Below are positions 22,443 through 38,107 of a stretch of 46,979 nt of DNA, piece by piece (within the stretch, counting starts at the first letter, position 1; every line of letters starts with the position of its first letter). Origin of the DNA: Lachnospiraceae bacterium (GTDB lineage Bacteria > Bacillota > Clostridia > Lachnospirales > Lachnospiraceae); contig JAFTFD010000372.1 in assembly GCA_017449745.1 (NCBI GenBank), positions 1 through 46,979 of the forward strand, read 5' to 3'. A program made the position numbers and the translations under genes. The notes below the pieces were generated by a model. That model searched no databases. It saw only the letters and a program-made list of their open reading frames with translations, and was not told where the DNA came from.

Positions 22443-22502
22443 TCATATGCAGGCAGGTGGGAACTGTCCCAAAATACATGTAGTTTTAAAAACTACATCC
22501 AT
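22443..22502 (-). CDS. Possible 19-codon upstream reading frame before degV
   Basis: An ATG at 22502 preceded by AGAGGTAAACT opens a 19-residue frame (start MDVVFKTTCIL) that stops at 22443, 52 bases before the degV start. The ribosome binding site is better than for most short chance frames, and codons 2-8 lie across the palindrome at 22478-22498. The peptide matches nothing I recognise. It could be a leader peptide or chance. Confidence 0.3.
   Translation of the reverse strand: MDVVFKTTCILGQFPPACI
22478..22498. promoter_or_regulatory. 21-base perfect palindrome upstream of degV
   Basis: ATGTAGTTTT and AAAACTACAT flank one central base. It is 88 bases upstream of degV and about 105 bases left of the divergent rlmI promoter. 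The size and symmetry are typical of a repressor operator. I cannot name the regulator. Confidence 0.5.
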
Positions 22503-22602
22503 AGTTTACCTCTTTTCTCCTTATAAATCCAGTATAAGCGCAAACAATGTTGTCTTTCCGCGCTTTTCGCTGCTGCCGCGTATAAAGTGGCCTTACGGGG
22601 GA

Positions 22603-22631
22603 TTGTCAGAAAATCGAAAATCCATTATATT
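22603..22631 (+). promoter_or_regulatory. Sigma-70 promoter of the rlmI-like gene
   Basis: TTGTCA (22603-22608) and TATATT (22626-22631) are separated by 17 bases. The leader contains a bulged hairpin at about 22664-22697 (loop TTTGTTT) that ends 20 bases before the chosen start codon. Confidence 0.7.
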
Positions 22632-22717
22632 TGTGGGACAGAATTGCCGCAATATCATAACAATAGGAAAAGGTCCTGCACTTTGTTTGTGCGGGCCTGA
22701 TGAGTTTCGGAGCAGAT

Positions 22718-23974
22718 ATGACGATCAGTGAATATTTGGCATATGACTGCAGTTCGCAGACCTCTCTCGTGCGGGACGCCTGCGCTGTAATAAAGAAAAA
22801 AGAAGGAAGGGAATTCAAGGCTGGCGGTGCCTGGATCTATGACAATGAAATAGACCGGTTCGAAGGCAGCTCCTTTGAAGACGGAGATATGATCCGCGTT
22901 CTGGATCACGACGGGTATCCTCTCGGAGTTGGTTTTATCAACCGCAGCTCGACGATCCGTATCCGCATGCTCTCAAGAAAGGACACAGCCGTGACGCCGG
23001 AGTTTTTGTATGAGCGGGTCCGCAGTGCCTGGGAGTATCGCAAACACGTCATCGATATTTCTTCCTGCCGCGTCATTTTCGGCGAGGCGGATTTTCTCCC
23101 CGGCCTGACTGTCGATAAATATGAAGATATCCTTGTCGTGGAGTCTCTCGCCCTGGGAAGTGAGAAGATCAAGACGATCTGCCTCTCCGCCCTTGTGCAG
23201 ATCCTTGCGGAAGACGGGATCCGTGTTCGGGGGATCTATGAGCGAAGCGACGCAAAGGTAAGAGAAAAGGAAGGCCTGCCGAGATTCAAGGGATTCCTTT
23301 CGGAAGAGTTTGACGTTCGCGTTCCCATCACAGAGAACGGCGTCCGCTATATCGTAGACGTGGCGGAGGGCCAGAAGACCGGATTTTTCCTGGATCAGAA
23401 GCTCAACCGGCGCGCGATCCATCCGCTCTGCAAGGATGCCGAGGTCCTCGACTGTTTCACACATACCGGTTCCTTCGGCCTCAATGCCGCCATCGCCGGC
23501 GCAAAACACGTCACCTTGGTGGATGCCTCGGATCTGGCTGTCAGGCAGGCCAAGGAGAATGCCGCCTTGAATGGTCTCTCCGACAATAAGGTCGATTTTG
23601 TCTGTGCGGACGTCTTCGACCTCCTGCCGTCCTACGAGGAAGAGGGGAAACAGTTCGACGTCGTCATCCTCGATCCTCCTGCCTTTACAAAGAGCCGCAA
23701 CTCCATCAAAGGAGCGATTCGCGGCTACCGGGAGATCAACCACCGCGGTATGCGCCTCGTCCGTGACGGCGGCTACCTCGTCACCTGCTCCTGTTCGCAC
23801 TTTATGGATCCGCAGCTTTTCTCCGACGCCATCGCTCAAGCCTCCAGGGATGCGCACGTGCGTCTCAGGCAGATCGAGTTCCGCCAGCAGGCTCCGGACC
23901 ACCCGATCCTGTGGGCTAATGATGCGTCCTATTACCTGAAGTTTTATATCTTCCAGGTAGTGAGGGACAGATAA
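22718..23974 (+). CDS. rlmI: RlmI-like 23S rRNA (cytosine) methyltransferase
   Basis: This protein of about 418 residues is a class I SAM-dependent RNA methyltransferase of the RlmI/YwbD type. An N-terminal PUA-like domain (FKAGGAWIYDNEID, VGFINRSSTIRIRML) is followed by a linker (FGEADFLPGLTVDKYED) and the Rossmann domain with EGQKTGFFLDQ, the SAM loop VLDCFTHTGSFGLNAAIAGA and the catalytic LDPPAFTKS plus CSCS. GGAG at 22709-22712 favours the ATG at 22718 over 22700. The exact RNA target is inferred from the family. Its last 34 bases, including the stop codon, form the left attachment repeat of the island. Confidence 0.9.
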   Translation: MTISEYLAYDCSSQTSLVRDACAVIKKKEGREFKAGGAWIYDNEIDRFEGSSFEDGDMIRVLDHDGYPLGVGFINRSSTIRIRMLSRKDTAVTPEFLYERVRSAWEYRKHVIDISSCRVIFGEADFLPGLTVDKYEDILVVESLALGSEKIKTICLSALVQILAEDGIRVRGIYERSDAKVREKEGLPRFKGFLSEEFDVRVPITENGVRYIVDVAEGQKTGFFLDQKLNRRAIHPLCKDAEVLDCFTHTGSFGLNAAIAGAKHVTLVDASDLAVRQAKENAALNGLSDNKVDFVCADVFDLLPSYEEEGKQFDVVILDPPAFTKSRNSIKGAIRGYREINHRGMRLVRDGGYLVTCSCSHFMDPQLFSDAIAQASRDAHVRLRQIEFRQQAPDHPILWANDASYYLKFYIFQVVRDR

Positions 23975-23975
23975 G
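23942..23975 (+). repeat. Left attachment-site repeat (attL) in the end of rlmI
   Basis: These 34 bases encode FYIFQVVRDR and the stop codon of rlmI, plus one base. They match 35181-35214 except at three positions (23950, 23959, 23965), all third codon positions. Confidence 0.8.
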
Positions 23976-23986
23976 GTAAAATAATA

Positions 23987-24022
23987 CCCCGGAAAGCGTT
24001 TAAGTATAACACTTTTCCGGGG
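23987..24022 (+). terminator. Terminator after rlmI, supplied by the island
   Basis: CCCCGGAAA pairs with TTTCCGGGG around a 17-18-base partly paired loop, and is followed by TTCTCTT on the plus strand. It lies 13 bases after the rlmI stop codon and overlaps the end of the recombinase remnant. Confidence 0.75.
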
Positions 24023-24440
24023 TTCTCTTATTTGAGTTTTGTTTCATTCTGAGCCCTTTACCCAAAACATACCCTAATCTACATATTGTTTTGGGAGTAT
24101 CCAGTTTGAATCCCTTGTGAGGAATATAGTCCAAAGAGTGGCCAACATGGATAACTTCATTTTTGCTGTCTATATCTCCTATAGATAATCCAAGCAATTC
24201 ATTTATCCTCATTCCTGTAAGTGTTGCTGCCTTATAAAGTCTGAAATAAGGAGATGAAATTGCATATTGCAAAAAGGCTTTCTGTGTTTCTCTGGCTACA
24301 GCTCCCTTTTTTTGACTTTTCTTTGCTTTCGGTCTATCTGAGTTAATAACCGGATTAATATTAATCACACCTGACTTTACAGCTCTATCAAACATTCCAT
24401 ACAATATTACAGTTGCAAGGGATTTTCTCTCTTGGACCCT
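24000..24440 (-). pseudogene. Truncated tyrosine recombinase/integrase
   Basis: This open frame of about 146 codons matches the middle of a phage/ICE-type tyrosine recombinase. It has the end of the core-binding domain (ATVILYGMFDRAVKSGVININP), a Lys-rich linker, then the start of the catalytic domain with TGMRINELLGLSIGDID, which contains the first catalytic Arg. Both ends are lost. Upstream the frame meets a stop codon at 24441-24443, and downstream it runs into terminator sequence without the HxxR, His and Tyr motifs. A protein made from it could not be active. It is AT-richer than the surrounding genes and points towards attL, the normal position of an integrase. Confidence 0.8.
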
Positions 24441-24493
24441 CTATAGGAGACGCGGCAAGCCGCTATAGAAGGCCAGAAGACTGCCAGAGGGCA

Positions 24494-24526
24494 TAAAAAA
24501 ACAGACATACCCAAAGGTACATCTGT
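24494..24526 (-). terminator. Intrinsic terminator in the island's left end
   Basis: On the minus strand ACAGATGTACC and GGTATGTCTGT pair over 11 bases (two G-U pairs) around TTTG and are followed by seven T residues. No intact gene now ends here, so it is probably left from a deleted element gene. Confidence 0.75.
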
Positions 24527-24617
24527 CACCTCATTTCTATAATACCAAATGACAATCCTTTTTATCTGTCCTCCCGATCCTAGACACATACACTATAGCA
24601 TATAACTTGTCTCAGTG

Positions 24618-24711
24618 CGTCCCAGCTTTTCCCAAGTTTTCGTATCCTGTCGCATTTTGTCGCATCGTGTCCCAAAAGTCGCATCTGTGTATTAGAAATC
24701 ACCGCGTCCCA
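24618..24711. repeat. TGTCSCA repeats with 10-base period
   Basis: Seven-base units close to TGTCGCA or TGTCCCA start at 24648, 24658, 24668 and 24677, with further copies at 24618 and 24705. The central four are spaced 10, 10 and 9 bases, one DNA turn. Such arrays near an integrase gene are often arm-type binding sites for the recombinase or its accessory protein; that role is inferred. Confidence 0.5.
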
Positions 24712-24914
24712 AAGGTGTACCAGCATTGCGACCGTTGTGTAAAACTCTGTATAGAACGATCTCAATGCGTCAGTAATACACACCTTGAGCAGTTCCGATA
24801 TTCAAATAAGCATCGTAACTGTGCCTCTTCAATTGGAAGCATAGTATTAACGTTCAAAACACCGAACAGTTTTCACTTCTATAAAGCTTGAAGCCTGCCT
24901 GCATAGTCTTCCCC

Positions 24915-24948
24915 GAAAAAAGTGGCTATGCACCTTTGCATAGCCACT
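24915..24948 (-). terminator. Intrinsic terminator of the symporter gene
   Basis: AGTGGCTATGC and GCATAGCCACT form a perfect 11-base stem with a 6-base loop, followed on the minus strand by TTTTTTCGGGG, ten bases after the stop codon. Confidence 0.92.
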
Positions 24949-24957
24949 GTGTAATCC

Positions 24958-26331
24958 TTATGCTTTTCTGGTCTTTCGCTCAGCAAGCTCCTTGACGATG
25001 GTCGGATAGATCTTATCGAGATTGCACATGGCAAGGATGACCGTCCCGATAACAATCAGGATCAGCGGAACCCATGTGTAAAGAGCTTTGATCGCAAACA
25101 GAGCGGATGCACTCTGTACTGCTGCTTCACCGGAATAACCGCCTATGGCAAGACCCCAGCCGACGACGGCGCTCCCGAGGCCGGTTCCAACCTTCATGCC
25201 GAAGGATGCCGCTGAGTAAGTCATTCCCTCAACGCGCTTGCCGAACTTCCAGTCACCATAATCGATTACATCTGCGATCATTGCGAACATACCTGCGGAA
25301 TGAGGCACTCTACCTACCCCGACCAGTGCAAGACCAATGAGCAGCATTGCAAAACTTCCGGAAGTTGCAAGGATGACCAGGTAACCGATGATCTGCATGA
25401 TAAATCCGATCATCAGGCATTTCCACTTACCAGTCTTCTCAACGATCTTCGGGAAAACAGGAAGCAGGATGATGGAAGGCAGGAAGCCCATCGTATTTAC
25501 CGTCCCATAGGCTCCCATATTTCCGAGGATATCACGGATATAGTAGATAGCGATACCATTGGTCAGGTTCAATGCAGCATAGTTGATGATGAACAGAAGT
25601 GCGACAAAAATGAAATACTTATTCTTAAACAAAAGAACCAGTGCCTGTTTTACCGGGATATCCTCTCTCTTATTCTCCACTGACTCACCGATGGTACGCT
25701 CTTTGCAGAAGAAAAATGTAATAAGGATCAGCACGGTTCCTGCAATGCCATAGATGACAGACATCCAGCGATAGCCTATGGACGCGATCATACCGGGAGC
25801 TGTATAGATGATGATCAGTACAGCGATCCAGGTGCAGAAGAAACGGACCGAACTAAGTGTTGTGCGGTCCTGCTGGTCAGGTGCCATAAAGGACATCATC
25901 GTTCCGTAGGACAGATTACATGCAGTGAAGATCACCACAGCAAGCAGAATGTATGTAATGAAGGCATATACGATCTTCCCGCTTCCCGAAAGGCCTCCTG
26001 GCACATTGAACAGAAGGACCAGGCCAATGCCCATAAAGGGAGCCATAAGACCAACCCAGGGTCTGGCTTTACCCCACCTGGTATGGGTATGGTCAACAAT
26101 ATTACCCATGATAAGATCGGAAATTCCATCCAGCAGACGGGTCAGCAGCATAATTGTTCCGACAACACCGGCAGCGATTCCAACGTTATCCGTGTAATAT
26201 ACGGTGAGGAACATCCCCACTGTTGTCCAGATGAAATTACATCCGGCATCTCCGAGACCATAAGCGATCTTTTCCAAAAACGGCACTTTTTCTACCGACC
26301 CCACAGCAGAAGTGTTTTCATTGGCAGCCAT
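24958..26331 (-). CDS. GPH-family sugar/glycoside:cation symporter
   Basis: This 457-residue membrane protein is a glycoside-pentoside-hexuronide:cation symporter of the major facilitator superfamily, related to MelB, XynB-type and GusB transporters. About twelve transmembrane helices are visible. The conserved segments AYGLGDAGCNFIWTTVGMFLTVYYTDNVG, RLLDGISDLIMGNIVDHTHTRWGKARPW and LSYGTMMSFMAPDQQDRTTLSSVRFF carry the Asp residues that bind the coupling cation in this family. AGGAGG at 26338-26343 sets the start at 26331. It has its own LysR-type promoter (26411-26451) and terminator, so it is a separate unit from the enzymes upstream. The substrate is likely a xyloside or other glycoside, judged from the GH120 and GH2 neighbours. 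Confidence 0.9.
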   Translation of the reverse strand: MAANENTSAVGSVEKVPFLEKIAYGLGDAGCNFIWTTVGMFLTVYYTDNVGIAAGVVGTIMLLTRLLDGISDLIMGNIVDHTHTRWGKARPWVGLMAPFMGIGLVLLFNVPGGLSGSGKIVYAFITYILLAVVIFTACNLSYGTMMSFMAPDQQDRTTLSSVRFFCTWIAVLIIIYTAPGMIASIGYRWMSVIYGIAGTVLILITFFFCKERTIGESVENKREDIPVKQALVLLFKNKYFIFVALLFIINYAALNLTNGIAIYYIRDILGNMGAYGTVNTMGFLPSIILLPVFPKIVEKTGKWKCLMIGFIMQIIGYLVILATSGSFAMLLIGLALVGVGRVPHSAGMFAMIADVIDYGDWKFGKRVEGMTYSAASFGMKVGTGLGSAVVGWGLAIGGYSGEAAVQSASALFAIKALYTWVPLILIVIGTVILAMCNLDKIYPTIVKELAERKTRKA

Positions 26332-26410
26332 AATCGTCCTCCTAATTCTTATAGAGATCTTTTTGAACGTTGTTTCCATAGATTTAATGATAAAGAAAAA
26401 CAGCAGTTTT

Positions 26411-26451
26411 AGAAGATAGATAATCGTTGTGCAGCAACAACCAATTGTTGT
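26411..26451 (-). promoter_or_regulatory. LysR-type operator and promoter of the symporter gene
   Basis: Plus-strand reading: AGAAGATA (26411-26418), seven bases, then GTTGT-N6-ACAAC-N5-GTTGT (26426-26451). On the minus strand TATCTT (26413-26418) is a -10 box and TTGTTG (26435-26440) a -35 box with a 16-base spacer, so the operator covers the -35. The same arrangement recurs at 34007-34047. Confidence 0.65.
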
Positions 26452-26468
26452 ATAAATTCAGAGGAAAA

Positions 26469-28958
26469 TCAGACAGTTGCGATTTTAACATCCATTGGCT
26501 TACATCCATCAGATGTAATCTTTACCGTGATTTCACCCGTCTCCCTTTTTGATCTTACAACAGCGAGGACCAGACCATCGTATGTCTCCCATGTGGTGCT
26601 GTCATAGCTGTTCTCCGTATCAGGATCAGCGCTGCCAAACCCCTGCAGTGTCCCTTTGCCTTCCACTGACACGGAAATCCTTTTCTTTATCTGAAGATTC
26701 TTCCGGCCTTCTGCATCTTTCAGTCCGATAAGGATATAAGCGAGATCGGCACCATCCGCACATATCTCATTCCTGTCAACTGTAACATCCAGTTCCACCT
26801 GATCATCCGCGCTTTCCAGGGAGAATGCTCCTGTGCACTCGCCCCTTATATAGCTGACAGCCTTCAGTTCTCCCGGTTCATAAGTCAGCTCATAGGAAGC
26901 CAGGTAGTTATTCTTCTCTCCTGCAGGTCTGCGGCCAAGTGATCGTCCATTGAGGAAAAGCTCCACTTCATCCGCATCCGCAAAGACATCCACCTTTGCC
27001 GGCTTTCCCTCATATCCGGTCCAGGTCCAGCTCGCGATGTTATCCTTCCACGCCCATGCAGTCTTATTGGGAACCTCGCCATAATGATCCAGACGTTCGA
27101 CTGCAATATACGGATCTTTTCTCAGGCCAAATATGATCTCCCTGTAGTAGCTGATCGGACGTCTGGTCCCGATCAGGTCGATATCACCTGTAAAGGAAAT
27201 GCTGGTAGGCCAGTTGTCCGTAAATCCGCCGCGCCCGTCATAATAGAAGACGCCAAGACCTGCTTCTCCGAGATAATCGTAACCTGTCCAGGTCATATCT
27301 CCGATGACATTATTGTTTTCCCTGATGATCTTCCACAGACGGGGGATTTCCGGCGGGAAGGTCTCTGTTCCAAGAATTACACGGTTGGGATTGTCCTTCT
27401 GTTCCATCAGGTGCCGTGCCGTCAGATAATTATATCCGCAGATATCCAGGGTTCCTTCCATCTCTCCGATGGTTTCCGACAGGATGGGATGAACAGCAAC
27501 CGCATCCGAAAGAGGACCGACAAGCAGGCTCATCGTGCTGTTGAGGGCCTCGCTCCCCGCATCGGACTCATTAGCCTGCGCTGTCATCGAGACGGACACC
27601 CGATCCTGTGTTTCGCCTGTGATATCTGTCATGATCTCTCCCAGGCGGCTCATACTGGCCAAAATGCCGTTGATTGCGTTTGTCACATACCGGGTATCAT
27701 CCAGACGATGAACATAGTTTGTAATCGTCCTGCTCACTTTAGCGCCCTTTGCCGTACCGGCCTCCTGTATCTCATTGCCGGTACAATACATAATGACAGA
27801 AGGATGATTGTAATCTTTACGAATCATCTGCTGCGTATCGAATTTCCAGTTCTGCTCAAAAAACTGCGCGTAATCATTGTTGTTTTTCGACTGTGTCCAG
27901 CAGTCAAAAAGCTCGTCTATGACCAGCATTCCCTCTCTGTCACATGCTTCGAGCATCGCCTTGCTTACAGGATGATGAGAACTTCTTATGCAGTTGAATC
28001 CGGCTTCCTTCAGCTGCCGGCATCTTCGCTCCTCTGCCCGTTCCAACGTACAGGCTCCGATAATACCATTATCGTGATGGATACAGGCTCCGCGCAATTT
28101 AACGGTCCGCCCATTGATCCTGAGCCCGTGTTTTGCGTCAAGGGACAGTCTCCGGATACCGAAGGGTATCACCTCTTCATCCAGAAGCTCATCGCTTTTC
28201 AGGATGCAGACCTGGCATTGATAAAGATAAGGTGTATCGGTATCCCAAAGCCGGGGTGCATCCACGTAAAGACGCTGCCGGCAGGACTCGTTTTTTCCGG
28301 GGAAAACAGTGACTGGAACAGAATCGCGCGCGACGATCCTGCCTTCCTGATCCATAATGCAAACCTGCAGCTTTGTTTTCTGCCGAACCTGCAGACTGCT
28401 GACGATTTCCGTTTCCACCGCAATAACCGCCGAGTCTTCCCCAATATCCAGAGAAGTGACTTTTACGCCGTCCTCCCGAATATGCAGAGCATCCCCGACC
28501 ATGAGATTGACATTGCGGTAAATGCCGCTGCCTGAATACCACCTGCTGTTTGGCTCGGCTGTATTATTGGCAACAACTTTTATTTCGTTCCCTGTTCCAT
28601 ATTTCAAAAAGCTATTTGCCTGGATATAAAAATTGGTATATCCATATGGATGACCGCCGGCATACTCTCCATTCAGATACACCCTGGCATTTCCATATAC
28701 ACTTTCGAACTCAATCAGGACAGTCTTGCCTTCCCAGTCCGCAGGCACATCGAATTGTTTCGTATAGGTATAGATACCTCCCGGATAAAACCCCGTCTGG
28801 TGGGCATTTTTAGTGTCATGAGTCCTCTTTTCATGGATCATGGCGTCATGAGGAAGTTCGATCAATTCCTCTTTTGCATTTTCACCCGACATCTCTGAAA
28901 AAGGGCTTCCTGATGGTGCCTGCACCGTCCATCGGTCATTCCACTTTATCCGTTTCAT
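26469..28958 (-). CDS. GH2 family glycoside hydrolase (beta-galactosidase/glucuronidase type)
   Basis: This 829-residue enzyme is a GH2 retaining exo-glycosidase. Domains in order: jelly-roll sugar-binding (about 1-160, with GIYTYTKQFDVP and RVYLNGEYAG), immunoglobulin-like (160-270), a TIM barrel (270-600) and C-terminal beta domains (600-829) including an ADEVELFLNGRSLG module as in DUF4982-bearing members. RSSHHPVSKAMLEACDREGMLVIDE, GNE (acid/base Glu396) and ILGTETFPP (nucleophile Glu532) are intact. There is no signal peptide, so it acts inside the cell. AAGGAG precedes the start. It is the last gene of the GH120-ADC-OYE-GH2 operon. The sugar released cannot be decided; galactose, glucuronic acid or arabinose-type substrates are all possible for the family. 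Confidence 0.9.
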   Translation of the reverse strand: MKRIKWNDRWTVQAPSGSPFSEMSGENAKEELIELPHDAMIHEKRTHDTKNAHQTGFYPGGIYTYTKQFDVPADWEGKTVLIEFESVYGNARVYLNGEYAGGHPYGYTNFYIQANSFLKYGTGNEIKVVANNTAEPNSRWYSGSGIYRNVNLMVGDALHIREDGVKVTSLDIGEDSAVIAVETEIVSSLQVRQKTKLQVCIMDQEGRIVARDSVPVTVFPGKNESCRQRLYVDAPRLWDTDTPYLYQCQVCILKSDELLDEEVIPFGIRRLSLDAKHGLRINGRTVKLRGACIHHDNGIIGACTLERAEERRCRQLKEAGFNCIRSSHHPVSKAMLEACDREGMLVIDELFDCWTQSKNNNDYAQFFEQNWKFDTQQMIRKDYNHPSVIMYCTGNEIQEAGTAKGAKVSRTITNYVHRLDDTRYVTNAINGILASMSRLGEIMTDITGETQDRVSVSMTAQANESDAGSEALNSTMSLLVGPLSDAVAVHPILSETIGEMEGTLDICGYNYLTARHLMEQKDNPNRVILGTETFPPEIPRLWKIIRENNNVIGDMTWTGYDYLGEAGLGVFYYDGRGGFTDNWPTSISFTGDIDLIGTRRPISYYREIIFGLRKDPYIAVERLDHYGEVPNKTAWAWKDNIASWTWTGYEGKPAKVDVFADADEVELFLNGRSLGRRPAGEKNNYLASYELTYEPGELKAVSYIRGECTGAFSLESADDQVELDVTVDRNEICADGADLAYILIGLKDAEGRKNLQIKKRISVSVEGKGTLQGFGSADPDTENSYDSTTWETYDGLVLAVVRSKRETGEITVKITSDGCKPMDVKIATV

Positions 28959-29010
28959 ATTCCCACTCCTTGGAACTTAAATTATAGTGATTGAGTTGTT
29001 TTACAGTTTG

Positions 29011-30978
29011 CTATAATTCATATGCCGCACGGAAGGCTTCGTGGATCGCATCCGGAACTCTCCTGCCGCCTCTTACCGCATCACCGGCGCAATACACCCG
29101 TTCCATGCCAGCCAGTTCCTCCTGCAGATGATTAACAGCTCTCACACCCAGCGCGACAATGACAGCGTCACAGGGTTCTTCAATCTGAAACCCTGCATGG
29201 TCCTCCAGAATCACACTGTCATGCCGGATCTCCATCAGTTTATGTCCCGGCATTGTGCGAACACCTGTCCTTGCAAGTGCTGCGGTAGCGTCCATGATCA
29301 TCAATGGAAAACCTACGGCGCCCATTGCATCGGCCATCTCAATATTGATTACTTCATTGCCCCGCTCCTGCAGGTATTCTGCAGTCTCCATTCCAGTAAG
29401 GCCGCCACCGATCACTGCCATCCGCTTTCCGGAAAAACATACCTTCTCTGTCAGTACATCCTCCGCCACATAGACATTTTCACCTCTCATTCCCGGAATA
29501 CTGCCGGGCAGGACAGGCACGGAACCAGTCGTCAGAAAAACCGCATAAGGATTCAGCTCCCGGATCATATCCGCGGTTACTTCGGTATTCATCTGGATAT
29601 CCACATTCAATGTTTCCAGTTGTTTTACGGCATACCGGATAAAGTTACCCATCTTTGCTCTGTGAGGCGGCAGGGACGCAAGATACATCTGACCTCCTAG
29701 TCGTTCCCTCTTTTCAAATACCTTTACATGAAATCCTCTTTTCCCGAGGATCATAGCTGCCTCAAGGCCTGCCGGACCGGCGCCGACTACGACACACAGT
29801 CTGCCTTCTCCATCCTTCCCCGGCTCACCGTAATTCAGTTCTTCTCCCATATAGGGATTCACTGAGCAAAATGCGTGAGATCCGCCTGTACACAGATTGT
29901 TCCCGGCCGTCTCAAAACAGTACATGCAGCCTAAGCATTTCCGGATTTCTTCATCACGGCCTGCAATGGCTTTTACACCCCATTCAGGGTCTGCCAGCCA
30001 GGACCTGCCCATGGCCACAAAGTCAACATCTCCATTCTCGAGGATTTGTTCCGCATATGCGGGATCACGGATGACGCCTGTTGCAGCGACCGGAATCTGC
30101 ACTGCCTTTTTGATCTCAGCTGCCAGTGGTATTTTCCAACCCTGTTCATAAGAAGTCGGCTCGACAATCGTATTTCCGGTAAAATGCGTACCGGAAGAAA
30201 TATTTAAAAGAGCAACTCCCGCCTTTTCACAGGCTTTGGCATCTTCTATGGTTTCCTTCAGGGTAAGACTTTCCCGGTAAATCCCGTCAAGGAATTCCGA
30301 GCTGCTCAGCCGCACACTGATGGGATATTCTTTGCCGCATACCCTCTGCACTTCCGCTATGATTTCCATCAGAAAGCGACGTCTGTTCTCCGCAGATCCG
30401 CCGTATTCATCTTCTCTGTGATTGTCAAACGGAGAGAGGAACTGATGGATCAGATAGCCATGTGCCGCGTGAATTTCAACGCCGTCAATTCCCGCTTCTT
30501 TGGCTCTGCCTGCCGCCTCGCCGAAGTCTTTCACCAGCCCCCGGATTTCTTCTACCGTAAGCGCCCGGGTCGGTTCAGGCGCGACAAAACTTGGAACCGG
30601 CATGGAGGAAACGAGCTGCCTGGTATCAGGATTCAGCACAAGATGGGATTCCCGTCCCGGATGATGAAGCTGTACAAAAATTTTGGTGTCATATTCATGT
30701 ACTACATCTGCCAGTTTCCTGAAACTGGGTACGGTATCATCTGTGGCAAGGGACAACTGATCATATTCCCCTGCCCCGTGAAGATTGTTGACACGGGTAA
30801 TTTCTGTAATAATAAGACCTGCGCCGCCTTTTGCCCGCTCTGCATAAAACCGGATAAATGCATCTGTTGCCTGTCCATTCGGGGAGCCGACGCCAACACC
30901 CATCGCCGTCATGACAAGCCTGTTTTTTATTGTCAGATTTCCAATCGATCCTGTTTCCGCAATCTTTTCATATTTCAC
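29011..30978 (-). CDS. OYE-family NADH:flavin oxidoreductase / ene-reductase with FAD and Fe-S
   Basis: This 655-residue protein has the 2,4-dienoyl-CoA reductase layout: an FMN TIM barrel (about 1-340; NRLVMTAMG, VQLHHPGRES, DGVEIHAAHGYLIHQFLSPFDNHREDEYGG), a cysteine cluster (CLGCMYC, then two more Cys) for a 4Fe-4S centre, and an FAD/NAD(P) domain (VVVGAGPAGLEAAMILG, AVIGGGLTGMETAEYLQ, CAGDAV). Such enzymes reduce carbon-carbon double bonds in enoates, dienoyl-CoA, bile acids or flavonoids. The GTG start overlaps the ADC stop codon (GTGA), with GGAGGT eight bases upstream. In this island it probably reduces the aglycone released by the glycosidases; the substrate is unknown. Confidence 0.9.
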   Translation of the reverse strand: MKYEKIAETGSIGNLTIKNRLVMTAMGVGVGSPNGQATDAFIRFYAERAKGGAGLIITEITRVNNLHGAGEYDQLSLATDDTVPSFRKLADVVHEYDTKIFVQLHHPGRESHLVLNPDTRQLVSSMPVPSFVAPEPTRALTVEEIRGLVKDFGEAAGRAKEAGIDGVEIHAAHGYLIHQFLSPFDNHREDEYGGSAENRRRFLMEIIAEVQRVCGKEYPISVRLSSSEFLDGIYRESLTLKETIEDAKACEKAGVALLNISSGTHFTGNTIVEPTSYEQGWKIPLAAEIKKAVQIPVAATGVIRDPAYAEQILENGDVDFVAMGRSWLADPEWGVKAIAGRDEEIRKCLGCMYCFETAGNNLCTGGSHAFCSVNPYMGEELNYGEPGKDGEGRLCVVVGAGPAGLEAAMILGKRGFHVKVFEKRERLGGQMYLASLPPHRAKMGNFIRYAVKQLETLNVDIQMNTEVTADMIRELNPYAVFLTTGSVPVLPGSIPGMRGENVYVAEDVLTEKVCFSGKRMAVIGGGLTGMETAEYLQERGNEVINIEMADAMGAVGFPLMIMDATAALARTGVRTMPGHKLMEIRHDSVILEDHAGFQIEEPCDAVIVALGVRAVNHLQEELAGMERVYCAGDAVRGGRRVPDAIHEAFRAAYEL

Positions 30979-31823
30979 AGACGGTCACCTCCTATCAGAC
31001 CTTTTTTATCAAAACGAGCCGTCAGAAGCTTCGATATTGCCTGCGCAGGATCCGCTTCGCCCATCTTCACCAGTTCCTTCATCCGCAGATCACTCTCGCA
31101 GTACGCTCCTCCCATGTTTTCTAATACAGGAAGCTGCCCCCAGGCATCATCCCTGCCTGACATAAGACGGACCGTCACCTTGCCCGCTTCCCAGCTCCGA
31201 TAGGTATACTCCGCCTCATTGGAATAAATGTTGACCTTTGAAAAAGCAGGGGCACCGGTTTCATCCGGCTCCATGAGCGGATGCATATAAAAGCTTGTCC
31301 CACCGGATACAGCACCAGCGGCAGCCCCCTGATAACAGGCTTCCGTCTGGGGATTGTTATAACTGCCGTCCAGTTTTACCGATACATCAGCCAGCGTTAC
31401 TCCATGGCGGCACGCATAAGCCCGTACTACGTCTCCGGTCCGGATGAACCGGATATCCGATTCGTTCTCACACATCTTTTTGGGAAGCCCGTATTTTTCC
31501 CTGCCTGGCAGTGTGGCCATCTGGGCGCCGGGTCCGGAAAGCAGAAAGCTCACAGGATACAGACCTGTCTGCGCTCCCAGGCGGACGTAAACGCCTATCA
31601 TTGCTTCCCGATAAGGTTCGGTAAATGCTGGCTTGTCAATACTTACGATATATCCGGATACCAGCGGAAAGGCAGCTTCCAGAGGTTTTGGAATAATATC
31701 AGCAATCGCAGCCAGATCGCTTCGAAAAGTAAAATATACGCCTTTTACATCTCCCATCAGGGAGATCGGATTCAGGAATGCCTGATCCTCCGGCAAGTGA
31801 AATAGTGCTTTCTCCGGTTTCAT
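30975..31823 (-). CDS. Acetoacetate-decarboxylase-family protein
   Basis: This 282-residue protein belongs to the ADC superfamily. It has YFTFRSDLAAIADIIPKPLEA and the active-site region GREKYGLPKKM, where one lysine forms the Schiff base in true acetoacetate decarboxylases. Length is slightly above the usual 245-270. Many family members act on other beta-keto or enol acids, or as aldolase/dehydratase-like enzymes, so acetoacetate is not assumed. AGGAGGT precedes the ATG. It is translationally coupled to the OYE reductase downstream and lies 61 bases after GH120, indicating a shared pathway. Confidence 0.85.
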   Translation of the reverse strand: MKPEKALFHLPEDQAFLNPISLMGDVKGVYFTFRSDLAAIADIIPKPLEAAFPLVSGYIVSIDKPAFTEPYREAMIGVYVRLGAQTGLYPVSFLLSGPGAQMATLPGREKYGLPKKMCENESDIRFIRTGDVVRAYACRHGVTLADVSVKLDGSYNNPQTEACYQGAAAGAVSGGTSFYMHPLMEPDETGAPAFSKVNIYSNEAEYTYRSWEAGKVTVRLMSGRDDAWGQLPVLENMGGAYCESDLRMKELVKMGEADPAQAISKLLTARFDKKGLIGGDRL

Positions 31824-31884
31824 TCTTCACAACCTCCTGTCACAATACTCTCTTACGTTTATGCCTGTACTTTATGTTCCCGGA

Positions 31885-33924
31885 TCAAAACAATCTCTTT
31901 GATGCTTCCCTGCCATCTGCGAATGGACCGGGAACGCAGCGCCTGGTCCTTGAAGTTCCGAACCAGGTCTTGTCAAACAGGATCTCACTGCCATCCGGAT
32001 TTTCAAAACGCTGTTCCGGCTCAAAGGCCATGCCTAACGTCTCTGTATTGATCATCTTCGGGGATGTTTGGGGCAAATGCTCATAAAGGTTTGTTGTCAG
32101 ATACCATCCGTCATCCTTCTGTTCTGCTGCGATTTCGATAGCGTGGTCAATGACCTCGGTGCCTTTATTTTCCTTTTCCCAGGGTCTGGCCCCGTTGAAG
32201 AAAACGTTGCCGCCGGTCCATACAGGCAGGCGGATATAATAACGGTCACTGAGCGCAGAACCCATACCGCAGTATCCTTCGAACTCTTTGTCCCACTCTT
32301 CGAATGTGGGGAAGCCGTCGTATGCGCTGGTACCCACGATGGCGTTGCCATCGTCCCAGCCGCTCCCATCGCTCCCCATCATCTCCATGACAGGCTTCAG
32401 GGCCGGGCGCAGCGAACGCTGCACAAACAGGTTATTGTAGAACCTGGCATCTCCGTGAAGGAAGGTCATGAACCCTGCAACCTCAGTCCTGTGGGGCAGA
32501 TGGTAAGGCGTGTAACGCGGAGAGTAAAGTGTCAGAGCGCCGTTGTTTGTGCCTATCCCGATGTCCACCAGACTGCCCGCGATAAGGTTGTGTACTACGG
32601 CTACACCCTGACAGGCCAGCTTGATCGCACGCTCGGAGAGCAGTACATTGTTATCGATCAGCGTCGGACCGTGGGAGACTTCCACAAAGACATCCTCACC
32701 TATGCTGGAGAAAAGAGAAGGATTTAGATCCTCCGGCGTCTTGTTCAGATGTGGTGCGGTATTGTCGTGGAACAGGTTCTGCGTGACCCGCGTGCCCTGT
32801 GCCTGCCAGTCCAGCCAGATCCCCCGCGTACAGTCATGAATATGATTGTGCCGGATGATCACATCGATGGCAGCGTGCATCTTAATACCACCGATCTCTG
32901 CTCCTGCCAGGTTTTGCTTATTATTGATATGATGAATATGATTATCGTCTATCAGGGAGAACACACCGCCCAGATGGCCTACTATGCCGGTCTGTCCGCA
33001 GTCATGTATGTCACAGCGGCGGACAGTGTGGCTGCCAATCGTCTCTTTCGACCATCCTTCCGCCTGTGCCAGACAGATGCACTCACGTTCCGTCTGTGTG
33101 CCGTCTTTGTATTTCCAGTGAAGCCATTTGTTTTCATTGTTTTTCTGCAGATATTTACCCAGAGAAATGCCGCTGCATTTGGACTCATATACTTCGCAGT
33201 CCTCGATGATCCAGCCTTTGGACCAATGCGGTGCGATCATACCCTCCTGAAAAGCTGTAGGCGGAGCCCACTGGGTAGCCGCCTGACAAACGGTAAAACC
33301 GGAGAGGGTAATGTACCCTATGCCCTCATCCTCAGGCGCAAAGCAGGCAGAGCGTACGCTCAGTTCCACATTCTCCGCATTCGGATCCTTTCCCTGAAAA
33401 TTCGCGAAGAACACTGTTTCATCCGTCTCCGGATCCTGCTCGGCATACCAGACATAAACCGAAAACTCCGGATCCCAGGACAGAGAGCTCGGCCGGGGAT
33501 CGAATACCATTTCACGGCACGTCACTTCATACAGAGACTTCCCGTTCAGGAATACCTCGCCGGTGTGGGCAACAAAATCAGATATAAACCAGTCCCCCGA
33601 GATCCTTGTCGTGTAAGGATTACGCTCCGTAAATACTGTATTGGAAATTCTCGCCGACCAGACGCTGCCGCCTTCATATACCCAGCCGGCCAGCCTCTCT
33701 GCCCCGGTAATGACAGCCTTCCGCGGCTGCGTCGAACGATAAATAATACGTTCCTGCTCGGTGCCGCCATGCCTGGGATTCACATTCTCGCGATATACGC
33801 CCGGCATCACCAGAACTTCATCTCCCGCCGCAGCGACATCTGCCGCAGCCTGGATCGTTCTGAATGGGCGTTCCTGTGTTCCATCTCCATTTGCAGCGGC
33901 ATTCACGTCAACATAGAGTTTCAT
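31885..33924 (-). CDS. GH120 beta-xylosidase-like parallel beta-helix protein
   Basis: This 679-residue right-handed parallel beta-helix protein closely resembles GH120 beta-xylosidase (XylC of Thermoanaerobacterium). Shared landmarks are the GTQERPFRTIQAAADVA opening, VWYAEQD with FANFQGKDPN, WAPPT, HWSKGWIIEDCEVY, GWSKETIGSH, DCGQTGIVGHLGGVFS, IKMHAAIDV, GIWLDWQAQGTRV (catalytic Asp372) and DVFVEVSHGP (catalytic Glu415). Compared with XylC there is an extra stretch of about 20 residues between the two catalytic residues. No signal peptide, so it acts on imported xylosides. AGGAGG lies nine bases before the start. It is the first gene of the four-gene catabolic operon. Confidence 0.85.
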   Translation of the reverse strand: MKLYVDVNAAANGDGTQERPFRTIQAAADVAAAGDEVLVMPGVYRENVNPRHGGTEQERIIYRSTQPRKAVITGAERLAGWVYEGGSVWSARISNTVFTERNPYTTRISGDWFISDFVAHTGEVFLNGKSLYEVTCREMVFDPRPSSLSWDPEFSVYVWYAEQDPETDETVFFANFQGKDPNAENVELSVRSACFAPEDEGIGYITLSGFTVCQAATQWAPPTAFQEGMIAPHWSKGWIIEDCEVYESKCSGISLGKYLQKNNENKWLHWKYKDGTQTERECICLAQAEGWSKETIGSHTVRRCDIHDCGQTGIVGHLGGVFSLIDDNHIHHINNKQNLAGAEIGGIKMHAAIDVIIRHNHIHDCTRGIWLDWQAQGTRVTQNLFHDNTAPHLNKTPEDLNPSLFSSIGEDVFVEVSHGPTLIDNNVLLSERAIKLACQGVAVVHNLIAGSLVDIGIGTNNGALTLYSPRYTPYHLPHRTEVAGFMTFLHGDARFYNNLFVQRSLRPALKPVMEMMGSDGSGWDDGNAIVGTSAYDGFPTFEEWDKEFEGYCGMGSALSDRYYIRLPVWTGGNVFFNGARPWEKENKGTEVIDHAIEIAAEQKDDGWYLTTNLYEHLPQTSPKMINTETLGMAFEPEQRFENPDGSEILFDKTWFGTSRTRRCVPGPFADGREASKRLF

Positions 33925-33959
33925 GCTGCATTTCCTCCTGCCTTCTTATCCGTCTACCG

Positions 33960-33994
33960 TTTCCTGTATCTTCTAATTTAGAAGATACAGGAAA
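33960..33994 (-). promoter_or_regulatory. 16-base perfect hairpin in the GH120 operon leader
   Basis: Positions 33960-33975 and 33979-33994 are perfect inverted repeats with a 3-base loop. The stem contains TATCTTCT/AGAAGATA, the same octamer found at the promoter (34007-34014). It starts close to the predicted 5' end of the transcript and ends 36 bases before the GH120 start codon. Confidence 0.7.
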
Positions 33995-34006
33995 AAGGAA
34001 GCGTCC

Positions 34007-34052
34007 AGAAGATACAAAAAGGTTGTGTCCTCACAACGATCCGTTGTATAAT
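34007..34052. promoter_or_regulatory. Divergent GH120 operon / lysR promoters with shared operator
   Basis: AGAAGATA (34007-34014), seven bases, then GTTGT-N6-ACAAC-N5-GTTGT (34022-34047). Leftward promoter: -35 TTGTGA (34031-34036), 16 bases, -10 TATCTT (34009-34014), minus strand. Rightward lysR promoter: -35 TTGTGT (34023-34028), 18 bases, -10 TATAAT (34047-34052). The operator covers both, so LysR binding should activate the operon and limit its own gene, as is usual for divergent LysR loci. Confidence 0.7.
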
Positions 34053-34083
34053 GATTGCAAGTTATTAAAGGGGGATAATATTC

Positions 34084-34959
34084 ATGGAACTCAGGCAAAT
34101 CCAATATTTTGACGCTGTTTTCAGAGACACCAGCATCTCAAAGGCAGCACAGAATTTATTTGTCACTCAGCAATGCATCAGCAAACAGATCTCAATGTTG
34201 GAAAAGGAATTCGGCGTGGCGCTTCTTAAACGAAATCCGAATGGCGTAACCCCAACGGAAGAAGGGCTCTGGTTTCAGGAACATGCCGCAATGATCCTCC
34301 AGATCGAGCAGGACATCCAGACACATTATGAGATGCTGCGTAAGGGAGGGCCGGATGTCGTACGTATCGGTGTCTCCAACGGATTAAACCTGTTCTTCGA
34401 TGACACCTTTTTTCATCGTCTGAGAGCCGCACATTCCGAACAGATGATCCAAGTTTCCTACATGTGGAACAGACAAATTGAAGAAATGATCGAAAGAAAT
34501 GAACTGGATATCGGAATATCACTCCTTCCGGTGCAAAATGATTCCCTGTATGTAAAAAAACTGTTCACAGAGCAGCTTTGCTGCATTGTGAACAGTCATC
34601 ATAAACTGGCCGGATATGAAACGCTCCATTTCGAAGACATCATGCGGGAGCATATCGCAATGGCTGATGAGAACTACAACACATTTCATTCTTTCATGGC
34701 ACGCTGTAAAGCGCAAGGCGTCATGCCAGACATATATAAGGCCTCAGATCTGATGTCTATCTATGTCTATGTACTAAACCATGATGCCGTAGGTTTCAGC
34801 CTGAACACCTTCGCCGACCGCTTTCAAATCCATCAGATCCGGCACATCCTTTATGAAGATGCGGGCGGGGTATGGGATGTGTGCGCACTGCTGAATGAGA
34901 AGTGTAAGAACCGATTTTCAGCGTATACGAATGATTTTTCCACCTTGCTTCTGCTGTAA
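34084..34959 (+). CDS. LysR-type transcriptional regulator
   Basis: This 291-residue protein has the LysR winged helix-turn-helix at the N-terminus (MELRQIQYFDAVFRDTSISKAAQNLFVTQQCISKQISMLEKEFG...LLKRN) and a co-inducer-binding domain from about residue 90 (VVRIGVSNGLNLFF, ELDIGISLLP, NHDAVGFSL). AAAGGGGG lies upstream of the start. It is divergent from the GH120 operon and is the only plus-strand gene of the island cargo. Its probable targets are the two identical-layout operators at 26426-26451 and 34022-34047. The inducer is likely the imported glycoside or its aglycone (inference). Confidence 0.92.
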   Translation: MELRQIQYFDAVFRDTSISKAAQNLFVTQQCISKQISMLEKEFGVALLKRNPNGVTPTEEGLWFQEHAAMILQIEQDIQTHYEMLRKGGPDVVRIGVSNGLNLFFDDTFFHRLRAAHSEQMIQVSYMWNRQIEEMIERNELDIGISLLPVQNDSLYVKKLFTEQLCCIVNSHHKLAGYETLHFEDIMREHIAMADENYNTFHSFMARCKAQGVMPDIYKASDLMSIYVYVLNHDAVGFSLNTFADRFQIHQIRHILYEDAGGVWDVCALLNEKCKNRFSAYTNDFSTLLLL

Positions 34960-35180
34960 AGCTTTTCGTTTTAAACCAGGTTGCCTCTTAATTTGACAAA
35001 GTATATATCTTATGCCTGTGCGTCAGCCCGTACGACATTTCATACGACATTTTTTCATCAAATTCTGCTATTATGCGAGAGATTATGTCAATTCCGTAAA
35101 TATTACCCGATGTCTCCCGCCTAAATAAACACTGCATTTATCAGCATTTCTAAGGTTGTCCCGACCCATCTGGCCGGGAT
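34960..35180. other. Right end of the island, no gene
   Basis: AT-rich DNA after lysR with no credible frame. It has two TACGACATT copies at 35031 and 35043 and a short terminator-like hairpin (TCCCG-A-CC, loop CATCT, GG-C-CGGGA, then TTTTTAT) at 35159-35187 that touches the right attachment repeat. Confidence 0.5.
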
Positions 35181-35214
35181 TTTTATATTTTCCAGGTGGT
35201 GAGAGACAGATAAG
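35181..35214 (+). repeat. Right attachment-site repeat (attR), displaced end of rlmI
   Basis: This copy still reads FYIFQVVRDR plus stop in one frame. It differs from the rlmI end at 35189, 35198 and 35204, each a synonymous third-position change. There is no gene body in front of it, so it is a displaced gene end, not a functional gene. Confidence 0.8.
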
Positions 35215-35251
35215 TATTGCAGTTCAGCTATACGCAGCAAGTGAGCTAAAC

Positions 35252-35277
35252 AAAAGCGGCCGGCGGGCTGCTTTTTT
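35252..35277. terminator. Bidirectional terminator, probably the original rlmI end
   Basis: AAAAGCGGCC and GGCTGCTTTT pair over ten bases (one G-U) around GGCG and are followed by TT on the plus strand. On the minus strand it ends the motor operon, whose stop codon overlaps the T-run. It lies 38 bases after attR, the distance expected for a terminator of the undisturbed rlmI gene. Confidence 0.8.
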
Positions 35278-36298
35278 ATTCACCGCTGCCCGCATTATCT
35301 TCTTCTGCGTCACGTCCCCCGAGGATTGCCTCCATCTCTTGGACCATCTCCTCATCTTTCAGGCGGAAAAGGAATTCCACACGCCTGGATGCATCGGCGT
35401 CCACATTTCCGTTTTCGTCATAGACGGGTGAGCTGAAGGAGCGGCCGTTTGCCGTGACGATGCTGCGCAGCAGCTCTGTGTCCTCCGCTGAGAGGATCCT
35501 GTTGTCATCGCTGAGGCAGTAGCTTGCCACGGTGAGAGCGCGCTTCTGGGACAGCTCCAGGTTGTAGAGATATCCGCCGGTCGTATCCGTGTGTCCCTCG
35601 ATAATGATCTCGGCGACGTAGTCTGAGAACTCCGGCTGCATCAGGACGTCCAGGTACCTCGGCAGGAACCTGCTCAGGAACTGTTTTCCGGCATCCGTCA
35701 GATCCGACTCGCCGTAACCAAAGAGCACGTTGGAGTCGAAAGTGATCGCACCTGTCTGCTCATCCACCTTGATGGAGAGGTCGGTGCCCTCGAATTCCTC
35801 CTTGAGCGCTTCGATCAGTTCGCTTCGTACACCGATGATATTGTCCAGCTTGACCTGCTGGGCATCCAGTTTTTCCTGCATAGCGCCCAGCTCTTCCTCC
35901 TGGGAATTCAGCTTTCTCTGAGTGACGGCAAGCTCGTCCTGCTGGGCCTTCAGCTGGTCCTGTAACAGTGCCAGGGCAGCCTGTTTATCCTTCAGGTCCT
36001 TCTGCGCGAGCGCAAGCTCCGCTTCCTGCGTATCCATGATACTCTGCTGCTCCAGAACGACCTGGCGCTGCTCGTCCAGCTCGGTCTCCTGCGCAATGAT
36101 CTGCGCCTGCTTGTCCGAGAGCTGCAGCTCCTTCTCCTCGTATTGCACTTTGGACTGCAGCATAGTAAACGAGATGATCAGCACGAACGTCAGAAGAAGA
36201 GCTGCCATCATATCCGAATAGGAAAGCCAGTAGGTGGTCTCTTCGTCCGCTGCTCTGCGGCGTATGTCTTTTCTCATATTCGTTTCTTTCCTCTGCAT
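35276..36298 (-). CDS. MotB/ZorB-like membrane protein with OmpA domain
   Basis: This 340-residue protein is a stator-type B subunit. One transmembrane helix (about residues 28-48) follows the motif WLSYSDMMAALLLTF, whose Asp29 corresponds to the proton-carrying Asp of MotB. A long Gln/Glu/Leu-rich coiled coil fills about 50-155. An OmpA-like peptidoglycan-binding domain (about 185-313) has IIIEGHTDTTGGYLYNLELSQKRA and ASRRVEFLF. A second ATG at 36277 with AGAGGA upstream is an equally possible start. It follows the MotA-like gene by 12 bases. The extended coiled coil is longer than in most flagellar MotB proteins. Confidence 0.85.
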   Translation of the reverse strand: MQRKETNMRKDIRRRAADEETTYWLSYSDMMAALLLTFVLIISFTMLQSKVQYEEKELQLSDKQAQIIAQETELDEQRQVVLEQQSIMDTQEAELALAQKDLKDKQAALALLQDQLKAQQDELAVTQRKLNSQEEELGAMQEKLDAQQVKLDNIIGVRSELIEALKEEFEGTDLSIKVDEQTGAITFDSNVLFGYGESDLTDAGKQFLSRFLPRYLDVLMQPEFSDYVAEIIIEGHTDTTGGYLYNLELSQKRALTVASYCLSDDNRILSAEDTELLRSIVTANGRSFSSPVYDENGNVDADASRRVEFLFRLKDEEMVQEMEAILGGRDAEEDNAGSGE

Positions 36299-36310
36299 TT
36301 CTGCTCTTGA

Positions 36311-37744: not shown

Positions 37745-37975
37745 TCTATTGTTCCTCCGTAGTTATACTGTGTGAGAGCAGCAGAAAAGTCCGCCTCTTC
37801 TTTCTGCCGCAGGATACCCCGCGAAAATACGTCTGGGGCAATTTTGAAATGAGGCAGTTTTGAAATGAGTATAAACGAAAATCCGTGAACATACAAAGCT
37901 GTCGCCCCAGAATTCACAGAAAATTCAGCAATCCTTCATATCTGCATTATAATAGCAGTGAGTCATAGGGACAGG

Positions 37976-38003
37976 TTGCCACTGCCTGTATCTGTGATAA
38001 AAT
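37976..38003 (+). promoter_or_regulatory. Promoter of the rubrerythrin gene
   Basis: TTGCCA (37976-37981) and TAAAAT (37998-38003) are separated by 16 bases, leaving a leader of about 95 bases. Upstream, 37745-37975 holds the motor operon's start region and no credible gene. Confidence 0.5.
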
Positions 38004-38081: not shown

Positions 38082-38107
38082 ATTTTGAATAAGGAGAGGT
38101 GAAACAC

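Follow-up and report, generated by a model that had tools for sequence, protein, structure and literature searches.

The window analysed here, a stretch of 46,979 nucleotides from a gut Lachnospiraceae bacterium, very probably carries at 23976-35180 an 11-kb decayed integrative genomic island of the tyrosine-integrase type, with the 3' end of an rlmI-type gene as its target and presumed genes of sugar and small-molecule metabolism as cargo. An immobile remnant of such an island is the reading best supported by the combination of a direct repeat of the gene end, an integrase remnant, lower GC3 in the cargo genes, the absence of the acetoacetate-decarboxylase-like (ADC-like) gene from nearly all other genomes of the genus, and recurrence at other rlmI ends. 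This is most likely an instance of an ordinary, well-known kind of gene gain, by site-specific insertion, at an unusual address.

Probable target gene and displaced gene end

The target gene, the two boundaries and the right flank comprise the following features:

22700..23974, plus strand: rlmI-type 23S rRNA methyltransferase of 424 aa with an uninterrupted open frame (PF10672, PF17785; RlmI the best NCBIfam model)
23942..23975, plus strand: left attachment copy (attL), the final 33 bases of rlmI and the base that follows (sequence comparison)
23987..24022, no strand: inverted repeat CCCCGGAAA / TTTTCCGGGG, inside attL on the island side, terminator-like by eye
35181..35214, plus strand: right attachment copy (attR), a displaced rlmI end without its gene (sequence comparison)
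35276..36298, minus strand: MotB/ZorB-like OmpA-domain protein, right flank, outside the island (profile searches)

The target gene contains the Pfam domains Methyltrans_SAM and PUA_3, with its best NCBIfam model, RlmI, scoring 277.6 bits, below the cut-off of 712, so that "rlmI-type" is the correct wording; rumA/rlmD is a distant NCBIfam match, at 42 bits against a cut-off of 183.55. The copies at 23942-23975 and 35181-35214 lie on the same strand and are identical at 31 of 34 positions, being made up of 33 coding bases of rlmI, stop codon included, and one further base, beyond which homology ends abruptly. All three differences are silent third-codon changes. No gene body lies upstream of the right copy, where nothing rlmI-like was found, and tblastn places a single rlmI in the window. 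The initial annotation, which had noticed a 34-base recurrence with 31 identities and a second copy lacking a gene, is borne out by this re-count and by tblastn, with direct repeats of the target gene end bounding the island, the feature tested for, being present.

No third site matches the repeat at 22 or more of 34 positions on either strand of the window, and ~5e-11 matches of at least 31 would be expected there by chance (both strands, equal base frequencies assumed). Within the window's genome, a 24-base core pattern allowing up to three mismatches is found only at the two known copies, which rules out a dispersed repeat there; wide dispersal of the 34-base copy had been named as grounds for rejecting the island, and the search of this genome returned those two sites only. 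Rfam yielded no match at gathering level across 22500-38000, and the inverted repeat at 23987..24022 is absent from a hairpin scan that permits loops of 3-8 only.

Integrase remnant and cargo

The interior of the island holds an integrase remnant and six cargo genes:

24000..24440, minus strand: open frame with a Tn916-type tyrosine integrase remnant (similarity at 24087-24410)
24958..26379, minus strand: GPH-type sugar:cation symporter (TIGR00792 above cut-off; Pfam)
26469..28958, minus strand: glycoside hydrolase family 2, GH2 (Pfam)
29011..30978, minus strand: Old Yellow Enzyme (OYE) type flavin reductase, Oxidored_FMN and Pyr_redox_2 (Pfam, NCBIfam)
30975..31823, minus strand: ADC-like protein, coupled to the reductase (Pfam)
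31885..33924, minus strand: GH120-type protein with GH120 insertion domain and beta-helix (Pfam)
34084..34959, plus strand: LysR-type regulator, divergent (Pfam)

The integrase similarity at 24087-24410 aligns to residues 134-241 of a 409-aa relative, with 49% identity to a full-length integrase over 108 aa and a Pfam score of 23.2 bits, under the cut-off of 27.1. About the central quarter of the protein is retained, with the N-terminal part and the C-terminal half gone, and the remnant predicts that the island cannot excise itself. The frame lies 25 bases and the similarity 112 bases inside attL, towards which it reads, both the end and the orientation being those expected. Relatives of the remnant in Lachnospiraceae are tyrosine integrases of about 335-541 aa; plasmid and phage collections held distant integrase relatives only, all below 60% identity, and a search of viral_contigs with the remnant gave no confirmed relative. 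No rlmI match was found near 19 integrase loci of the genus (L183-L201) or 19 from other genomes of the family (L232-L250), each covering ~3 kb, suggesting that near relatives of the integrase use other targets.

The composition of the island looks foreign, with GC3 of 0.49-0.60 in the six cargo genes and 0.66-0.73 in seven of eight flanking genes (0.59 in the eighth), in a draft genome of 393 contigs with 4.84% contamination. The best NCBIfam model of the OYE-type reductase is BaiCD, under its cut-off, and reductase and ADC-like protein form one continuous frame in ten other genomes, the cargo presumably being catabolic in function. The ADC gene is unmatched at E 0.001 in 60 of the 61 other genomes of the genus, the exception (G053) containing two matches at 27-30% identity. 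Pfam scans of the island ORFs revealed no conjugation genes, no phage structural or replication genes and no excisionase gene.

Related loci and recurrence

The rlmI/motB neighbourhood of the window was found in one relative, G051 (same contig as RUG14180, L106), where rlmI and MotB/MotA occur in the same order, the cargo is absent, and 2.65 kb of other genes separate rlmI from motB. As regards the empty site that the initial annotation had proposed to seek in relatives, the cargo is missing from G051, but a clean junction of rlmI, the 35252-35277 terminator and motB is not present. An exact empty site was not found, this best syntenic relative being occupied by other genes, and neither was an intact element. 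Constant presence of the cargo between rlmI and motB, which had been offered as counter-evidence, is not observed, with the full cargo lying behind rlmI in none of 120 loci. OYE homologues of 31-35% identity occur in five other rlmI loci, in G036 (L030) rlmI is followed immediately by a distant GH2 homologue (33%), and in JAFPRF010000248.1 (L126) a GH120 homologue (50%) precedes rlmI; the short loci L030 and L126 gave no match to other cargo proteins.

A survey downstream of 201 rlmI loci (189 distinct, 2.26 Mb) showed repeat-bounded inserts to be rare, occurring in three, one of them weak (23/33), with a best match of 22/33 in the minus-strand control of the same loci; in 29 further short loci of the genus, over 39 kb of downstream sequence, no match reached 22. 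The search for other elements at this gene end, also proposed in the initial annotation, has thus produced one clear case and one weaker. The clear case, G026 (L092), has a 29/33 copy of the rlmI end at +1022, and between the copies lie a PemK/MazF-like gene and a weakly MazE-like gene (MazEF-type). The next gene beyond this insert is diacylglycerol-kinase-like and lies directly behind rlmI in three relatives without the insert (G044, G042 and G024). Two differences fall inside a 27-base core, both silent where 19-21% of single changes would be, and two more bases differ to the left of the core. The weaker case, JAFQUB010000024.1 (L130), has a 23/33 copy at +2746 (2.8-kb), with two of four differences changing a residue. 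JAFQCM010000125.1 (L117) has its left end and next gene, zf-HC2, in common with L130 and contains a 9.6-kb insert; it was left out of the count, its right copy being a degenerate trace by eye. In CACYXH010000005.1 (L159), an integrase DNA-binding remnant (Pfam Integrase_DNA (Tn916), 21.3 bits, under the cut-off of 27) lies less than 100 bases behind rlmI.

Several other candidates were set aside. A second weak match in L130 (+1521, 22/33) lies inside another ORF, and a 23/33 match in L098 was dismissed as chance-like local repetition adjoining the gene. The score of 23 reached by this chance-like repeat equals that of the L130 copy. Integrases occur 1.4, 4.7 and 9.7 kb behind rlmI in L273, L276 and L268 respectively, with no second copy of at least 22. 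The core pattern matched repeatedly in G413/G097 and in G379 (16 copies in the latter); for the G413/G097 copies L057 and L058, no preceding frame resembles rlmI by eye.

The exact attachment core had no match in viral_contigs, and three degenerate patterns of the rlmI end matched 1, 36 and 1 stretches. The single stretch matching the first of these, L341, falls within a long open reading frame and is a chance match, whilst the 37 stretches from two patterns (L378 included) showed no rlmI match at E 0.001 by tblastn, and most look like chance. L362 contains an rlmI-end copy, KFYIFQVCEEL-stop, beside repressor and excisionase genes, with 12/16 identity over the next 16 bases, tied with two other matches; it is kept as a lead only, on account of the in-frame CEEL-stop resembling the rlmI end and of its repressor and excisionase neighbours. 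Tentatively, Tn916-type tyrosine integrases in Lachnospiraceae may recurrently use the rlmI 3' end as an undescribed attachment site, the elements concerned being metabolic islands, minimal islands with little beyond a toxin-antitoxin pair, and one or more temperate phages (L362).

Proposed origin of the island

In the proposed scheme, the incoming element would have coded for a tyrosine integrase of the Tn916 type and carried in its attP a version of the 3' end of rlmI. Recombination of this attP with the rlmI end (attB) would have placed the element beside rlmI, which would have kept a working end (attL) while the second copy came to lie at the opposite boundary (attR). Loss of most of the integrase gene would have followed, so that the island is now fixed, with a catabolic operon of symporter, glycosidases, reductase/ADC pair and LysR regulator kept as cargo. 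We infer that the integrase now seen as a remnant performed the insertion and that it arrived together with the cargo; the choice between the two copies as the original host end is likewise presumptive.

Short repeats by themselves are generally weak evidence, and the repeat could be a chance similarity beside an unrelated accessory gene block. However, the expectation of 5e-11 and the minus-strand ceiling of 22/33 in 201 loci effectively refute this. It is also improbable that a second rlmI gene, from a tandem duplication or an incoming rlmI acquired by homologous recombination, lost its body by deletion and left only the right copy behind, with the cargo lying between or inserted by chance. 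The silent differences are as expected of two functional rlmI genes, but the sharp stop at 34 bases with nothing rlmI-like upstream, the integrase remnant at the other copy, and recurrence of the short copy in G026 and more weakly in JAFQUB010000024.1 all speak against it.

A two-step history is compatible with insertion at the rlmI end, and differs in that a small integrase element entered first and the operon was added inside it later, or in that the integrase came with a separate element that settled next to the operon at a later time. This appears rather unlikely, though GC is 0.40 in 23976-24957, the stretch of the integrase remnant, against 0.46-0.53 in the cargo genes, the G026 insert holds little except a toxin-antitoxin-type pair, and the JAFQUB and JAFQCM inserts differ in length behind a common left end. 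Against it, both copies enclose the whole cargo, no second boundary was recognised inside the island, and no IS or second integrase occurs among the ORFs scanned. The island proposed in the initial annotation therefore stands as an insertion that used the rlmI 3' end and regenerated it, well supported by the remnant, the silent differences, the composition, G026 and, more weakly, JAFQUB010000024.1, whilst its arrival as one unit spanning 23976-35180 is less secure, the integrase being decayed and the cargo possibly later.

Should the decayed island reading be true, a 23S rRNA methyltransferase gene end joins the addresses of mobile DNA in gut Clostridia, a displaced rlmI end offers a simple search signature, and the arrival of a glycoside/reductase operon is explained in one genome of a genus otherwise without a close ADC gene. 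The understanding of integration itself is unchanged.

Comparison with known integrative elements

Tn916-type integrases include the Lachnospiraceae relatives of the window's remnant, and the L159 remnant matches Integrase_DNA below cut-off. Tn916 itself has low target specificity, whereas the window's site is a defined gene end. In the literature searched, including the accessible parts of PMC6907783, PMC4383910 and PMC12884075, an rlmI-type gene end was not found named as an integration target; the TIGER/Islander table could contain cases.

Among streptococcal ICEs, the accessible part of PMC4701971 lists targets including rplL, rpsI, lysS, rpmG and guaA, with 3' ends implied. These elements resemble the window's island in having a tyrosine integrase near one end and a housekeeping gene as target, but no conjugation module was recognised in the island, and rlmI is unnamed among those of their 18 targets that appear in that part of the source (PMC4701971). 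The same part describes ICEs in rumA, a 23S rRNA methyltransferase gene, with serine integrases, repeats of 2-21 bp and gene-end exchange; the target is likewise an rRNA methyltransferase gene, however their integrases are of the serine type, and rumA/rlmD is only a distant relative of the window's gene (PMC4701971).

The tyrosine-integrase islands of the Islander/TIGER resource, of which 43.4% sit in protein-coding sequences (PMC12424338), are alike in that the target is regenerated at one end, a fragment is displaced to the other and the integrase adjoins (PMC12424338, and the accessible parts of PMC4383910 and PMC12884075). TIGER needs an integrase gene (PMC12424338), and might therefore miss the window's island, which differs from these islands in that its integrase is only a remnant and its target gene is rlmI-type.

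Results

The duplicated rlmI end and the integrase remnant concern the following features:

22700-23974, plus strand: rlmI-type gene, ending TTT TAT ATC TTC CAG GTA GTG AGG GAC AGA TAA G
24000-24440, minus strand: frame holding a tyrosine integrase fragment, near the rlmI-side copy of the gene end and reading toward that copy

As claimed in the initial annotation, the 34-base end of the rlmI-type gene returns at 35181-35214 with three changes. Because each of these (ATC/ATT, GTA/GTG, and AGG/AGA) is silent, both copies read FYIFQVVRDR-stop. By chance, a match this close would be expected ~5e-11 times in the window (equal base frequencies), and no match of 22/34 or better to the rlmI end occurs elsewhere in the window. 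Nor is the copy a dispersed repeat, with the 24-base core, at up to three mismatches, found at two places in the whole genome, which are the two copies themselves. Within the integrase frame, 24087-24410 aligns with residues 134-241 of a 409-residue integrase from another genome of the family (49% identity), and the match to an integrase of genome G008 reaches residue 134 of the 146 of the frame. The remnant lacks the N-terminal part and the C-terminal half, and with them most catalytic residues, and no further integrase piece stood out in 23901-25100.

The remnant is followed by genes for a GPH symporter, a GH2 enzyme, an OYE-type reductase, an ADC-like protein, a GH120-type protein, and a divergent LysR regulator. 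GC3 is 0.49-0.60 in these six cargo genes, and 0.66-0.73 in seven of the eight flanking genes measured (0.59 in the other). ADC matches at E 1e-40 or better occur in 12 of 397 family genomes, including the window's own; in ten of the other eleven, a single open frame, 938-1043 codons long, holds the ADC part with a reductase part just before it, and G164 has them as separate neighbouring genes. On this gene order, the reductase and ADC genes belong together. The ADC-like domain and OYE-type reductase, fused in ten Lachnospiraceae genomes (loci L206-L215), are two separate genes in the window. Within the genus, 60 of the 61 other genomes give no ADC match and G053 gives two distant ones, an absence that is not certain genome by genome because many of these genomes are incomplete. 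Glycoside import and cleavage, with reduction of the aglycone, would fit the cargo genes. A single distant GH2 homologue (33%) lies directly behind rlmI in G036 (L030 1-1359), and JAFPRF010000248.1 (L126 2-1306) has a single distant GH120 homologue (50%) preceding its rlmI, with no second cargo gene beside either within the short stretches compared.

In the genus, 62 genomes were searched, the window's own among them. One relative comes near the empty site anticipated in the initial annotation: G051 (L068; L106, RUG14180, is this contig again) has both flanks and no match to the cargo. The pair of genes preceding rlmI, then rlmI itself and MotB/MotA-like genes, stand in the window's order, but its 2.65-kb rlmI-MotB gap holds other genes (a DUF554-like gene, an acyltransferase, and a DnaJ-domain gene, named by eye) and is not a precise empty site. 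The window's own "motB/motA" pair (35276-37744) is closer to ZorB/ZorA-type stator proteins (PADLOC ZorB1 E 2e-77, ZorA1 E 4e-25; NCBIfam, below cut-off, ZorB1 E 6e-26 versus flagellar MotB 1e-5), with no defence match in the two scanned ORFs adjoining it. The MotB-like protein finds a match at E 1e-20 in 16 of the 62 genus genomes. A rubrerythrin gene (38099-38647) separates the stator-like pair from an acyl-CoA ligase gene, and at locus L105 a 77% identical acyl-CoA ligase lies ~630 bases from rlmI in opposite orientation.

The last 33 bases of rlmI were compared with up to 18 kb downstream at 201 loci (2.26 Mb in all), comprising the window, 40 genus regions, 80 named loci (the best 80 of at least 592), and 80 family regions, the last picked by rank from rlmI matches (215 of 397 genomes have one), with sites close to contig ends excluded. 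The downstream span was at least 35 bases, being under 1 kb at seven loci and 9.9 kb or more at 142, and 189 of the 201 loci are distinct by tail plus 200 bases. Four loci gave matches of at least 23/33 (window, 30; L092, 29; L130, 23; L098, 23), each of them plus-strand, with the minus-strand control at the same 201 loci reaching 22/33 at most. The L098 match was rejected as a second rlmI end, being local repetition beside the gene. A further 29 short loci of the genus, with 39 kb of downstream sequence, gave no match reaching 22/33.

L092 (genome G026, same genus) has 1.05 kb between its copies, holding PemK/MazF-like (above cut-off) and MazE-like (below cut-off) genes. Both differences in the 27-base core of these copies are silent, with two further mismatches immediately left of the core. 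The diacylglycerol-kinase-like gene next after the insert directly follows rlmI in G044, G042, and G024, an arrangement that represents the state without this insert. The MazEF-type pair (15588-16165) fills much of the insert, with no integrase there; the insert may be a cassette mobilized in trans or a stripped-down island. In L130 (JAFQUB010000024.1), 2.8 kb separates rlmI from a copy that encodes FQVLEEK-stop and is closely followed by a zf-HC2 gene and polA (the latter named by eye), with two of four differences within 24 bases silent. The left end of L117 (JAFQCM010000125.1) nearly matches that of L130, with direct repeats AATGGTGTC, and L130's next gene comes after 9.6 kb (64% identity); its right copy is degenerate only, by eye. 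In these two goat-gut species an island end of ~200 bases (L130 11195-11405, L117 2744-2965) is strongly conserved, with the AATGGTGTC repeats and a hairpin (by eye), although the inserts that follow are unlike in length and gene content. Genome G379 has 16 occurrences of the 24-base sequence TTTCAGGTGGTGAGTGACAGCAAA or similar sequences.

A profile built from genus integrases detected integrase sequence no more than 500 bases past rlmI at two of the 201 loci, the window and L159. At L159 (CACYXH010000005.1), an N-terminal piece of a Tn916-type integrase lies <100 bases past rlmI, and a right rlmI-end copy was not found.

Discussion

The simplest account is integrase-driven insertion at the rlmI 3' end, in which the element would have integrated by its own tyrosine integrase, its attP would have supplied a working end for rlmI, and most of the integrase gene would then have been lost. 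The silent differences between the copies fit an attP bound to keep coding for the rlmI end. The two copies, the remnant with its orientation, the composition, and the recurrence at other rlmI loci are observed directly. We infer that the window's remnant integrase did the insertion and that cargo and integrase arrived as one unit, and likewise the direction of exchange between the copies.

Several observations count against the island account. The genome to which the window (contig C166) belongs is a fragmented draft (4.16 Mb, 393 contigs, 91.46% complete, 4.84% contaminated), probably metagenome-assembled, and falls in the family Lachnospiraceae on the evidence of named rlmI relatives. Repeat-bounded inserts at rlmI are rare, one of them being weak; no intact element was found at rlmI; and none of the integrase loci compared, 19 from the family and 19 from the genus, has rlmI in its ~3 kb. 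An exact empty site for the window's island was not found either, but this says little, because what follows rlmI differs greatly across the genus, where rlmI protein identity is ~70%.

The viral contig L362 (5,647 bases) has KFYIFQVCEEL-stop near one end and no rlmI gene, with repressor, excisionase, anti-repressor, and replication genes as neighbours of this rlmI-like end. It is a lead and not a result, because it was drawn from 36 matches to a degenerate pattern, mostly chance, and is not outstanding by base identity.

Restoration of the target gene by an entering island is textbook knowledge. No report naming an rlmI-type gene as an integration target was found in a literature search of openly searchable papers, subscription papers and island tables lying outside it. 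In the TIGER/Islander resource of genomic islands, 43.4% of islands lie in coding sequences (PMC12424338).
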